DNA of 39,934 nt, taken from contig MGKV01000009.1 in the NCBI GenBank assembly GCA_001795795.1, forward strand, positions 7,260-47,193. The letters are read 5' to 3'. This DNA is from Candidatus Yanofskybacteria bacterium RIFCSPLOWO2_02_FULL_45_18. GTDB lineage: Bacteria > Patescibacteriota > Minisyncoccia > 2-02-FULL-40-12 > GWA2-44-9. Each line of letters begins with the position of its first letter. The stretch's first letter is position 1. Shown here piece by piece: positions 31,784 to 35,797 of this stretch. The position numbers and the translations under genes were made by a program. A model generated the notes under the pieces. That model saw only the letters and a program-made list of their open reading frames with translations, was not told the origin of the DNA and did no database searches.

Positions 31784-33574
31784 TTGAACGATCACCAGCT
31801 GGACGATTTCTTTGGTTTTAAATCGCCCGACGAAGAAAAAAAACGCAAAGAAGGAATCAGGGAAAGCATATTGAAGAACCTCGGCCAGAGTTTAAAGCTC
31901 CGGCTTATCCCCAGAGTCCTCTCCCAAAAAGAACGGCGTTTAATCTTGGCCTTATTGATTCTGGTTGCCGGGTCAATAGCGTCTTTGCCGTTTACTTTTT
32001 ATTATCATTTTACCGCCACGCGGCCGGATTACGGCGGCTCTTTCAGCGAAGGAGTCATCGGCGAACCGCGCCATATTAATCCTCTTCTCGCCAAAACCGA
32101 TGCCGACAACGACCTTACTGAACTTATATTTTCAGGCCTCATGAAATATAATGACACGGGCAAGCTGGTTCCGGATCTGGCTAAATCCTATGAAATCTCC
32201 AGCGACGGTCTAAAATATACCGTCTATATCAAAGAGGATGCCGAGTGGTCTGACGGAAAACCGGTTTCCGCCGATGATATTATTTTTACCATCCAAACCA
32301 TACAAAATTCCGACTATGGCAGTTCTTTGAGAATAAACTGGCAGGGAGTTGAGGTGGAAAAAGCCGGTGACTATGCCGTTATATTCAAATTAAAAAATAA
32401 ATACGCCCAGTTCCTCAACAACTTAACCGTCAAGATACTGCCGAAACACCTTTGGCAGGACATCAAACCAATAAATTTCGCGCTTTCCGAGCTTAACATT
32501 AAACCAATCGCTTCGGGTCCGTTTAAATTCAAAAAATTAAAAAAGGATAAGCTGGGAGCGATACGGTCTTACGAACTTGAAGCAAATAAAAATTTCTATG
32601 ACGGGCGGCCATACATAGACAATATCGAGTTCAAATTCTATGCTTCGGAAGATGCGATGATTGACGCCCACAATAAGGGCGAGATAGGGGCGATGAGTTT
32701 TGTTTCGCCCAAAAATATCAAAAAAATAAAATTCAAACAGCGTCTTTCAATTCAAAAAATAAATATGCCGCGCTACTTTGCCGTATTCTTCAACCAAAAT
32801 CAAAGCAAATTGCTTTCTGACAAAAATGTCCGGCTCGCCTTGGCCTACGGAACCGACAAAAATGACCTCATAAAACAAGTGCTCGACGATAACGGCATAA
32901 CGGTTGATTCGCCTCTGGTTGGTGGAGCTTTGGATATAAGCGACAGCGTAACAAAGTATTCTTACGATCCGGATAATGCCAAAAAGATGCTCTCAACGGC
33001 GGGGTGGACTAATGCGGATGAACACGGCATCTTGAGCAAAAAAGACGGTTCTGACCGACTGTCTGTCAAGATAACAACCTCCACCTGGCCGGAGCTCGCT
33101 GAAGTCGCCAACATACTTAAAGAACAATGGAGCAAAATAGGGGTTGAGGTTAATACAGAAGTTTTGCCCATAACCGAATTACAGCAGACCATTAAAGACC
33201 GCGGCTATCAAACGCTTCTTTTCGGCGAGATATTAAATATTGATCCCGACCCTTTCAGTTTATGGCACTCATCGCAAAAAAGAGAGCCGGGACTGAATCT
33301 GGCGCTATATGACAATAAAGCCGCCGATACGCTATTGGAAGACGCGCGGCAGACCCTTAATCCTCTGGAACGCGCCAAAAAATATGATGATTTCCAGAAA
33401 CTGGTAGCCGAAGACATACCGGCCATTTTCCTGTATAACCCGCAGTATCTTTACGCCCAATCAAATAAAATAAACGGCTTTGACAGTAAAATAATAGCCG
33501 CCCCCTCGGACCGTTTCGCCAACGCCAATCAATGGTATGTTGAAACTAAAAGAGCTTTCGGGGAGAAGGAGTAA
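31784..33574 (+). CDS. Membrane-anchored ABC-type peptide-binding protein (SBP family 5)
   Basis: 596 residues. The first ~50 residues are charged and cytoplasmic (DDFFGFKSPDEEKKRKEGI), followed by a membrane anchor (~51-75, LILALLILVAGSIASLPFTF) and then a full family 5 binding domain: GVIGEPRHINPLLAKTDADN, LAKSYEISSDGLKYTVYIKE, EWSDGKPVSADDIIF. Family members bind oligopeptides, nickel or other solutes outside the cell. It lacks a lipobox; no permease or ATPase gene is nearby. The start is TTG, immediately after a repeat tract, so the true start is uncertain. Confidence 0.88.
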   Translation: MNDHQLDDFFGFKSPDEEKKRKEGIRESILKNLGQSLKLRLIPRVLSQKERRLILALLILVAGSIASLPFTFYYHFTATRPDYGGSFSEGVIGEPRHINPLLAKTDADNDLTELIFSGLMKYNDTGKLVPDLAKSYEISSDGLKYTVYIKEDAEWSDGKPVSADDIIFTIQTIQNSDYGSSLRINWQGVEVEKAGDYAVIFKLKNKYAQFLNNLTVKILPKHLWQDIKPINFALSELNIKPIASGPFKFKKLKKDKLGAIRSYELEANKNFYDGRPYIDNIEFKFYASEDAMIDAHNKGEIGAMSFVSPKNIKKIKFKQRLSIQKINMPRYFAVFFNQNQSKLLSDKNVRLALAYGTDKNDLIKQVLDDNGITVDSPLVGGALDISDSVTKYSYDPDNAKKMLSTAGWTNADEHGILSKKDGSDRLSVKITTSTWPELAEVANILKEQWSKIGVEVNTEVLPITELQQTIKDRGYQTLLFGEILNIDPDPFSLWHSSQKREPGLNLALYDNKAADTLLEDARQTLNPLERAKKYDDFQKLVAEDIPAIFLYNPQYLYAQSNKINGFDSKIIAAPSDRFANANQWYVETKRAFGEKE

Positions 33575-33583
33575 CGATATACG

Positions 33584-33626
33584 TTCGCGCTACTGCACTC
33601 AGTATTTTCTCACCTTCGTTCGTCAA
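33584..33626. repeat. Dispersed ~43-bp repeat, copy 2
   Basis: CTCAGTATTTTCTCACCTTC then GTTCGTCAA; see the copy at 12581-12623. It lies just upstream of the tRNA-Leu promoter. Confidence 0.6.
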
Positions 33627-33655
33627 TTGCAATTTAAACTAACTTAAGGTATAAT
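33627..33655 (+). promoter_or_regulatory. Promoter of tRNA-Leu(CAG) and rnj
   Basis: TTGCAA, 17-bp spacer, TATAAT; about 58 nt upstream of the tRNA. No promoter or terminator lies between the tRNA and rnj. Confidence 0.7.
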
Positions 33656-33713
33656 TACCTTTCATTCAACTCTCTCAAATAGCTATTTTTTAACTAAATA
33701 ACTCTTGTACCGA

Positions 33714-33797
33714 GTCCGGATGGTGAAATTGGCAGACACGTAGCGTTCAGGGCGCTATGACCGCAAGGTCGTGGGAGTTCAAATCTCCCTCCGGGCA
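33714..33797 (+). tRNA. tRNA-Leu (anticodon CAG)
   Basis: Acceptor GTCCGGA/TCCGGGC (one T-G pair), anticodon stem-loop TAGCG-TTCAGGG-CGCTA with CAG, long variable arm (TGACCGCAAGGTCGT), T-arm GGGAGTTCAAATCTCCC, discriminator A at 33797. CCA is not encoded (CAA follows), unlike the other three tRNAs here. The rnj start codon begins 3 nt after its last base. Confidence 0.95.
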
Positions 33798-33799
33798 CA

Positions 33800-35797
33800 A
33801 TGGAAGAAAATAATAAAGAATCAGAGCAACTCTTCACGATTGAACCCCTAGTTCAAAAGGAGGAAAAACCGACAGCAACATTAACGGCAACCCCGACACG
33901 TCGGTTTTCAAGCCGTTCAAGAAGGCCATCCGGACAACCGCAAAGGCCTCAAACCCAGCCGGCAGAAAGCGCGCGCCGGCCAGAATCGGGCCAACAACCA
34001 AGACGCTCTCCCCGCCCGCGGAACCGTTACGGCGCTCCCCGTTCACGCTTAGCCGGTGAAAGACGCTTGCCGCCGACTCAAATACATCAAGGCCGCATCG
34101 GCACGCCCGAAGGAGTTGATATGAGTAAAGAAGATACTCTGAAAATTATCCCTTTGGGAGGGCTGGGCGAAATCGGCAAAAATATGTATGTGGTTGAATA
34201 CCGAGACGATATTATCGTAATTGACGCCGGCGTTATGTTCCCGCAAGACAATATGCCCGGCATAGACTTCGTCATTCCCAATACCAAATACCTCGAGGAG
34301 AGAAAGCAAAACATCCGCGGCTTGATACTGACGCATGGCCATTTTGACCATGTCGGCGCCGTATCTTACCTGCAAGACAAGCTTGGCCATCCCGATATCT
34401 ATACCGCCGAGCTGACCAAACGATTCGTGGAAAAAAGGCATGTAGAGTTCTCGCATCTCCCTAAACTTAATTTCCATGTCGTAAAGCACGGCGACAAGAT
34501 TAAATTCGGCGATTATCTTGAAGCGGAGTTTTTCCACATGAACCACAACATCCCCGATGATTTGGCGGTGATAATCACTACTCCGTGGGGCACTTTCATG
34601 CATACGGCTGATTTTAAATTTGACCCCAATCCGATGAATGACAGGCCGGCGGACTTAAGGCGCTTAAAAGAATTTGGAGACCGCGGCGTGGATATTTTAA
34701 TGTGCGAATCAACCGATGCCGAAGAGGAGGGGCATTCCCTTTCGGAACAGACGATTTTTGAAAATATGGACAAGATATTCAAAGACGCAAACGGCATGAT
34801 ACTTGCCGGCACTTTTTCCACCATGATTAACCGTATGCAGCAGATGGTTCAGCTATCTGAAAAATACGGCCGCAAAGTAATATTTGACGGCTACAGCATT
34901 AAGACCAACATTGAAATAGCCAAAGAAATGGGTTACATCAAGCTGGCTAAAGGCACCCAAATACCTATGGAACAAGTGGATAATTACCCCCGCAACCGCA
35001 TCACCGTTATCGCCACCGGCGCGCTGGGGCAGGAAAGCTCTTCGCTGATGCGAATTATCAACCAAGACCACCGCCACCTGCGGGTGCTAAAAGGAGATTC
35101 GGTTATTTTCTCGTCGTCGGTCATCCCGGGCAACGAGCGCAGTGTTCAGTATTTGAAAGACGGGCTTTATCGCGCCGGAGCGAGGGTCTATCACTACCAA
35201 ATGATGGATATTCACGCCGGCGGACACGCCAAGAAAGACGACCTACGGCAGATTCTGGATTTAATCCGCCCCAAATTCCTCATCCCCCATCACGGACATT
35301 ATTCCATGATGGTCACGCTTGGCGATCTGGCGGTTAAAGAAAAGGGCATGCCGCCGGAAAATGTAATCATTGCCGATAACGGCAAGATAATTCACTTCAC
35401 CAAAGACCGCTGGTGGTTTGATAAAATACAGGCGCCGGCTAATTATATCATGATCGACGGATTGGGCATCGGCGATGTGGGCAATGTGGTCATGCGCGAC
35501 CGCCAGGTCTTGGCCGAGGACGGAATGTTCGTCATCGTCGCTTTGCTGGATACCAGAACCGGCAAAGTAAAAGGCAGCCCCGACATTATTTCCCGCGGAT
35601 TCATCTATCTTAAAGAAAACAAGGATATGCTGATGCAGGTCAGACGGCGCGTCCGAGCTATTATTGAAAGCAAGTCCATGTTGCCGGAGGCCAATGCGGC
35701 ATATCTTAAGGACGAGATTCGCAATCAGATTGGACTTTACCTTTTCCAGCAGACCGAGAGACGGCCCATGGTGCTCCCCGTGTTAATAGAAGTGTAA
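33800..35797 (+). CDS. rnj: Ribonuclease J
   Basis: 665 residues. 5'-to-3' exo- and endoribonuclease of the metallo-beta-lactamase/beta-CASP group, central to mRNA decay and rRNA/tRNA maturation. Residues 1-107 are a disordered Pro/Arg/Gln-rich extension; the enzyme proper starts at MSKEDTLKIIPLGGLGEIGK. Metal motifs are LTHGHFDHVGAVSYL, MHTADFKFDPNP and, near the end, IPHHGHYSMM. Two starts are possible: ATG 33800, three nt after a tRNA, giving an essentially leaderless mRNA, and ATG 34121 preceded by GGAG, giving the bare enzyme. Both may be used. Confidence 0.95.
   Translation: MEENNKESEQLFTIEPLVQKEEKPTATLTATPTRRFSSRSRRPSGQPQRPQTQPAESARRPESGQQPRRSPRPRNRYGAPRSRLAGERRLPPTQIHQGRIGTPEGVDMSKEDTLKIIPLGGLGEIGKNMYVVEYRDDIIVIDAGVMFPQDNMPGIDFVIPNTKYLEERKQNIRGLILTHGHFDHVGAVSYLQDKLGHPDIYTAELTKRFVEKRHVEFSHLPKLNFHVVKHGDKIKFGDYLEAEFFHMNHNIPDDLAVIITTPWGTFMHTADFKFDPNPMNDRPADLRRLKEFGDRGVDILMCESTDAEEEGHSLSEQTIFENMDKIFKDANGMILAGTFSTMINRMQQMVQLSEKYGRKVIFDGYSIKTNIEIAKEMGYIKLAKGTQIPMEQVDNYPRNRITVIATGALGQESSSLMRIINQDHRHLRVLKGDSVIFSSSVIPGNERSVQYLKDGLYRAGARVYHYQMMDIHAGGHAKKDDLRQILDLIRPKFLIPHHGHYSMMVTLGDLAVKEKGMPPENVIIADNGKIIHFTKDRWWFDKIQAPANYIMIDGLGIGDVGNVVMRDRQVLAEDGMFVIVALLDTRTGKVKGSPDIISRGFIYLKENKDMLMQVRRRVRAIIESKSMLPEANAAYLKDEIRNQIGLYLFQQTERRPMVLPVLIEV

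Follow-up and report, generated by a model that had tools for sequence, protein, structure and literature searches.

How can an mRNA obtain its 5′ end when its gene leaves almost no room between the start codon and the tRNA gene in front of it? The question is raised by a stretch of 39,934 nucleotides (hereafter, the window) from a draft genome of Candidatus Yanofskybacteria (627 kb, 23 contigs, 97.7% complete), in which the gene for tRNA-Leu(CAG) is directly followed by rnj, the gene for RNase J. The answer toward which we lean, with somewhat more confidence than doubt, is that the two genes act as one unit and that excision of the tRNA would free a near-leaderless rnj mRNA, which would be tRNA punctuation of the mitochondrial type in a bacterium.

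The junction and the start codon of rnj

The tRNA-Leu(CAG) gene, the sole copy found in the genome, lies on the + strand at 33,714–33,797 if it is ended at the discriminator, or at 33,714–33,798 according to ARAGORN. The discriminator is A33797, as fixed by the acceptor stem GTCCGGA/TCCGGGC, which pairs in full; C74 is encoded, and CCA is not. After A33797 there is only a spacer of two nucleotides, CA (33,798–33,799, + strand, C33798 being position 74), and then comes ATG33800 of rnj, exactly as the initial annotation had read it. The open reading frame (33,800–35,797, + strand) encodes an RNase J of 665 amino acids, which scores 505.8 bits against TIGR00649 (cut-off 400) and has the HxHxDH metal motif of the family in LTHGHFDHVG. 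It is composed of an N-terminal extension of 107 residues, basic and of low complexity (33,800–34,120), and of the MBL/beta-CASP core, which with the stop codon occupies 34,121–35,797; a match is found in 57 of 58 relatives as well.

Where does the transcript begin? The only + strand promoter match in 33,400–34,200 is of sigma-70 type, TTGCAA-17-TATAAT at 33,627–33,655 (10 of 12 consensus positions, with the transcription start expected near 33,662), and it likely serves the tRNA and rnj together. With this single match upstream and no space for another, the earlier proposal that both genes lie on one transcript is in line with the sequence, and co-transcription is probable. A separate leaderless promoter within the tRNA, with its own −10 box 5–8 nt before ATG33800, was considered and rejected, as no −10-like hexamer is found there, the best one matching at 2 of 6 positions. 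Because the tRNA holds no −10 box, a near-leaderless 5′ end of the rnj mRNA in the window would have to come from processing.

No Shine-Dalgarno sequence precedes the rnj start in the window, where the sequence reads aatctccctccgggcaca-ATG, and the anti-Shine-Dalgarno of the genome is intact. Of 99 ORF starts in this genome, 12 have a Shine-Dalgarno motif and 13 have a −10 hexamer 5–8 nt before the ATG, with a clear peak at this distance, which suggests that many transcripts of this Parcubacteria genome are leaderless. With so few Shine-Dalgarno motifs, and promoters of the leaderless type at a similar frequency, leaderless translation of rnj is plausible. In tRNA-linked rnj loci with longer spacers, a Shine-Dalgarno motif is found in just 4 of 115; a leaderless promoter in these longer spacers of relatives was likewise rejected, −10 hexamers at 5–8 nt being not enriched among the 115 loci.

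It is to be asked whether ATG33800 is the start codon at all. The initial annotation had proposed a second form of RNase J from an internal ATG (Met108, 34,121–34,123, + strand), and one could go further and suppose that translation begins solely there, with 33,800–34,120 as an untranslated leader. A GGAG stands a short way upstream of this ATG, and the conserved catalytic core starts at 34,121. However, this GGAG belongs to GAAGGAG, which encodes a PEG peptide that is conserved in part, Met108 itself is not conserved among relatives, and the conserved RRLPPTQIH sits upstream of it, so that the second form is left unsupported. Most relatives of the order have open N-terminal extensions of ~50–160 codons, and alignment reveals a motif near the N-terminus common to the window (KPTATL-TATP) and its relatives (EPTATLAVAP, TATLASAP, TAALASAP) as well as RRLPPTQIHQGRIGTP, which is strongly shared with relatives directly before the RNase J core. 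The frame of the 107-codon extension has no stops while all five other frames hold them, and no in-frame ATG, GTG or TTG besides ATG33800 can reach residues 1–89 and thereby the motif near the N-terminus. To a start at 34,121 alone we thus give very little credence; conservation begins before residue 108, not only from it, and residues 1–107 are in all likelihood translated as part of RNase J.

Linkage across genomes and recurrence of the 2-nt spacer

Is this neighborhood peculiar to one genome? In a sample of 110 rnj loci, made up of the family and the order of the window plus about one locus per family of the class, tRNA-Leu(CAG) is found upstream of rnj on the same strand in 88, and another tRNA in only one; this linkage exceeds chance. 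Outside the class, tRNA-Leu(CAG) precedes rnj in 9 of 20 loci, and the named carriers of the pair include Yanofsky-, Sung-, Portnoy-, Ryan-, Gribaldo- and Pacebacteria. Flanking ORFs are less conserved than the linkage: homologues are shared in 44% of locus pairs on the upstream side and in 23% on the downstream side. Because the pair is so deeply conserved, a functional link between the tRNA and RNase J is plausible. No report of a tRNA-Leu(CAG)-rnj pair was found in the open-access journal literature searched, and the larger tRNA-rnj pattern to which the junction belongs is apparently unreported within this literature.

The spacer between the two genes is mostly 20–250 nt; in some loci it is longer, reaching over 800 nt, and at its shortest it is 2 nt. 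The closest relatives of the window have spacers of ~50–250 nt, so the linkage does not need the 2-nt junction. To see how often a near-zero spacer occurs, 384 genomes of the class were scanned for an in-frame rnj ATG within 0–8 nt of the discriminator. At least 12 of them have one, at least 10 at 2 nt (the window's own genome, G055, G137, G112, G092, G160, G378, G347, G264 and G330) and at least 2 at 3 nt (G004 and G217), and among the matches listed no other distance within 8 nt occurs. Two named Pacebacteria loci have a spacer of 4 nt. Locus L207, a doubtful case with a gap of 2 nt and an extension of 111 codons, is excluded from these counts because the frame is not open at this place in its sister L188. 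That 10 of the 12 listed lie at exactly 2 nt is more than chance would give under a uniform null, at ~1e-7 with uniform gaps and ~1e-6 with families counted once. These figures rest on that null, and mutation alone, through an A derived from position 76 of CCA, would make a gap of 2 more likely. The raw number of ATGs within 8 nt of tRNA-Leu(CAG) in any frame is roughly at chance level; an ATG a few nucleotides after a tRNA is by itself not above chance, and only the in-frame rnj subset is informative.

Five of the 2-nt cases (L179, L180, L181, L182 and L183) have an RNase J with virtually no extension, beginning approximately at the catalytic core (MEKIKIIPLGG and MTNNKIRIIPLGG, for example), and because of this their start next to the tRNA is unambiguous. 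The sister pairs L179/L180 and L181/L182 both keep the 2-nt gap within the pair. On a FastTree phylogeny of 175 RNase J cores, L207 included, the state "gap ≤4 nt" changes ~12 times, and for this reason the junction is taken as convergent, not inherited, on top of an old tRNA-rnj linkage. As to conservation of the junction in related genomes, which the initial annotation had named as a check, the pair is kept; the exact 2-nt gap is absent in the closest relatives and recurs convergently.

How the two RNAs may be parted

In the reading that we prefer, tRNA-Leu(CAG) and rnj would be transcribed as one unit, on which RNase P should form the 5′ end of the tRNA, while at its 3′ end an endonuclease would cut behind either A73 or C74 (33,797/33,798 or 33,798/33,799). 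The tRNA would then be completed by the CCA-adding enzyme, which is present in the genome, and the other product would be an rnj mRNA with a 5′-monophosphate and a leader of 1–2 nt, presumably translated as a leaderless message. With a spacer of almost zero, such a near-leaderless mRNA is just what excision of the tRNA 3′ end should yield, as had been foreseen. RNase J family exonucleases prefer 5′-monophosphate ends as substrate, and thus RNase J could, and likely would, limit its own mRNA through this end. The earlier idea of a link between tRNA maturation and RNase J supply is made plausible by the deep conservation of the pair. The reading starts from gene order, spacing, recurrence, the lack of a Shine-Dalgarno sequence and of a detectable RNase Z, and the presence of the CCA-adding enzyme, all of which are observed. 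A cut that missed these two nucleotides would ruin one of the two RNAs, and for this reason the junction lends itself to a direct assay. If the reading is true, mitochondria-like tRNA punctuation with an RNase as its product has arisen convergently, and more than once, among bacteria on which hardly any experimental biology exists.

How, then, are the 3′ ends of tRNAs formed in Parcubacteria without detectable RNase Z? The initial annotation had assigned the cut after the discriminator to an RNase Z-type enzyme. In 26 genomes (the window's and 25 relatives), the RNase Z model TIGR02651 never rises above its cut-off, against 9 of 14 controls in which it does; a very divergent RNase Z may have escaped it. 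The four PF12706 proteins of the genome are RNase J, a ComEC-like protein, an aCPSF1-like beta-CASP protein and a PRK00685-like hydrolase. With no model over cut-off and the MBL proteins assigned otherwise, RNase Z was rejected as the junction enzyme. The initial interpretation is thus right in its core, and in two details, RNase Z and the second form, it is wrong or lacks support. In 21 genomes (the window's own and 20 relatives), RNase E/G is absent and RNase Y is present in every one.

The nucleotide after the discriminator may give a hint. Every one of the 37 tRNAs of the genome has an encoded C74, and just 21 have the full CCA; C74 is present in all 16 tRNAs without encoded CCA, the discriminator assignment for this count having drawn on the T-stem too. 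Of the 88 tRNAs linked to rnj, 78 have C at position 74 and 10 have T; a purine never occurs there. A cut after C74, leaving a leader of 1 nt, is possible and fits this conservation. RNase P pairs with the RCC end of tRNA, and the conservation of C74 may equally reflect its recognition. It might also be imagined that RNase J itself, or the second beta-CASP nuclease, is the tRNA 3′ endonuclease in Patescibacteria without RNase Z and cuts its own mRNA from tRNA-Leu(CAG); we consider this improbable, but if it is true, RNase J level and tRNA maturation would control each other directly.

Does the junction need to have any regulatory meaning? The two genes may simply be old neighbours in streamlined genomes, between which the spacer drifts at random while the transcript is still processed. 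The wide spread of spacer lengths, with 2 nt at one extreme and over 800 nt at the other, suits such neutral compaction, and so does the partial conservation of upstream neighbours. In its strongest form, the A of an ancestral CCA (A76) could supply the A of ATG: an ancestral ACCA followed by TG comes to a 2-nt gap in few mutations, so that the gap would be mutationally easy and could be reached without selection. This does not sit well with the gaps listed within 0–8 nt being only 2 or 3, with the 2-nt gap being common to both members of deeply separated sister pairs, or with a tRNA-rnj linkage better kept than either flank, and we regard pure drift as rather unlikely, though as the most serious of the alternatives. 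Another possibility is that each transcript meets one of two fates, giving either a mature tRNA, in which case the rnj start is lost through 3′ trimming, or an rnj mRNA, on which initiation takes place at the AUG of the unprocessed precursor; without an exact junction endonuclease, competition between the two would set RNase J supply. RNase Z and RNase E/G are not found in the relatives tested, and an imprecise cut has almost no slack within two nucleotides, both of which would agree with this. But without a Shine-Dalgarno sequence, initiation beside a folded tRNA should be inefficient, leaderless starts seem quite usual in this genome, and Propionibacterium acnes, with no obvious tRNase Z, still cuts tRNA 3′ ends precisely (PMC3848588). 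Such an either-or transcript is therefore a doubtful explanation, less probable than drift.

Coming back to excision as the source of the rnj mRNA, its nearest likeness is the tRNA punctuation of animal mitochondria, in which a tRNA abuts a start codon and excision creates an mRNA 5′ end, freeing leaderless mRNAs; the spacer of 2 nt in the window, like that of 2–3 nt in at least 11 other genomes of the scan, falls within the range of 0–3 nt of that type. Unlike in mitochondria, the junction lies on a bacterial chromosome and concerns just one pair of genes, RNase Z is not found, and the conserved partner is itself an RNase. In the E. coli tRNA operon with tufB, too, a tRNA and an mRNA share one transcript and are parted by tRNA processing, as we suppose for rnj. 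Bacterial tRNA-mRNA operons of this kind have ordinary leaders with Shine-Dalgarno sites, in contrast to the predicted leader of 1–2 nt at rnj. As for the tRNA 3′ end, P. acnes resembles the window genome in that it has no obvious tRNase Z, encodes CCA in about half of its tRNAs and has a CCA-adding enzyme (PMC3848588). Its precise cuts, made by an enzyme that is not named, fall between the two Cs in some CCA-encoding tRNAs (PMC3848588); they were mapped there, whereas what is seen here is the conservation of C74, which may be due to RNase P recognition. Autoregulation of an RNase gene is described for RNase Y of Bacillus subtilis (PMC10303841); RNase J, too, might regulate the mRNA from which it is made, with the difference that the proposed entry point is a tRNA-derived 5′ end.

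Other features next to tRNA genes

A second zero-gap junction exists in the window genome, which agrees with the reading preferred here. On contig C14, tRNA-Leu(CAA) (L088:1027–1113) ends with an encoded CCA, which is followed at once by the ATG of an ORF of 205 amino acids (1114–1731); this ORF has no NCBIfam match and, to judge by its sequence, probably encodes a methyltransferase. After tRNA-Arg(CCT), a long ORF begins 10 nt past the discriminator. At locus L011, an ORF that is SET-domain-like by eye (MLLVKTKIGPSKIHGIGLFADQ) lies between tRNA-Leu(CAG) and rnj, starting 8 nt after the tRNA.

A structured element of ~115 nt is also found after the 3′ ends of tRNAs for Leu, Ser, Tyr and Met, and in L098 after a tRNA-like 3′ end, maybe that of a tmRNA. 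Copies in the window's genome lie at L104:1980–2095 (− strand), L088:425–537 (+), L102:1289–1412 (−) and L098:2905–3020 (+), with a partial one at L091:1507–1654 (−), and those in relatives at L002, L014, L017 (two tandem copies), L025, L066, L068 and L154. No Rfam match was found in the element-bearing loci scanned, and a covariance model of the element picks up more copies. At its 3′ end, the element carries a repeat of the final ~20 nt of the preceding tRNA; in its outer stem, an inverted copy of the T-arm pairs with this repeat, and its core reads GCCGGAGCGATG-hairpin-CCGCGAGGCGG; compensatory changes occur in 23 of 33 predicted pairs. The element may be a small mobile one, and in six relatives it lies between tRNA-Leu(CAG) and rnj.
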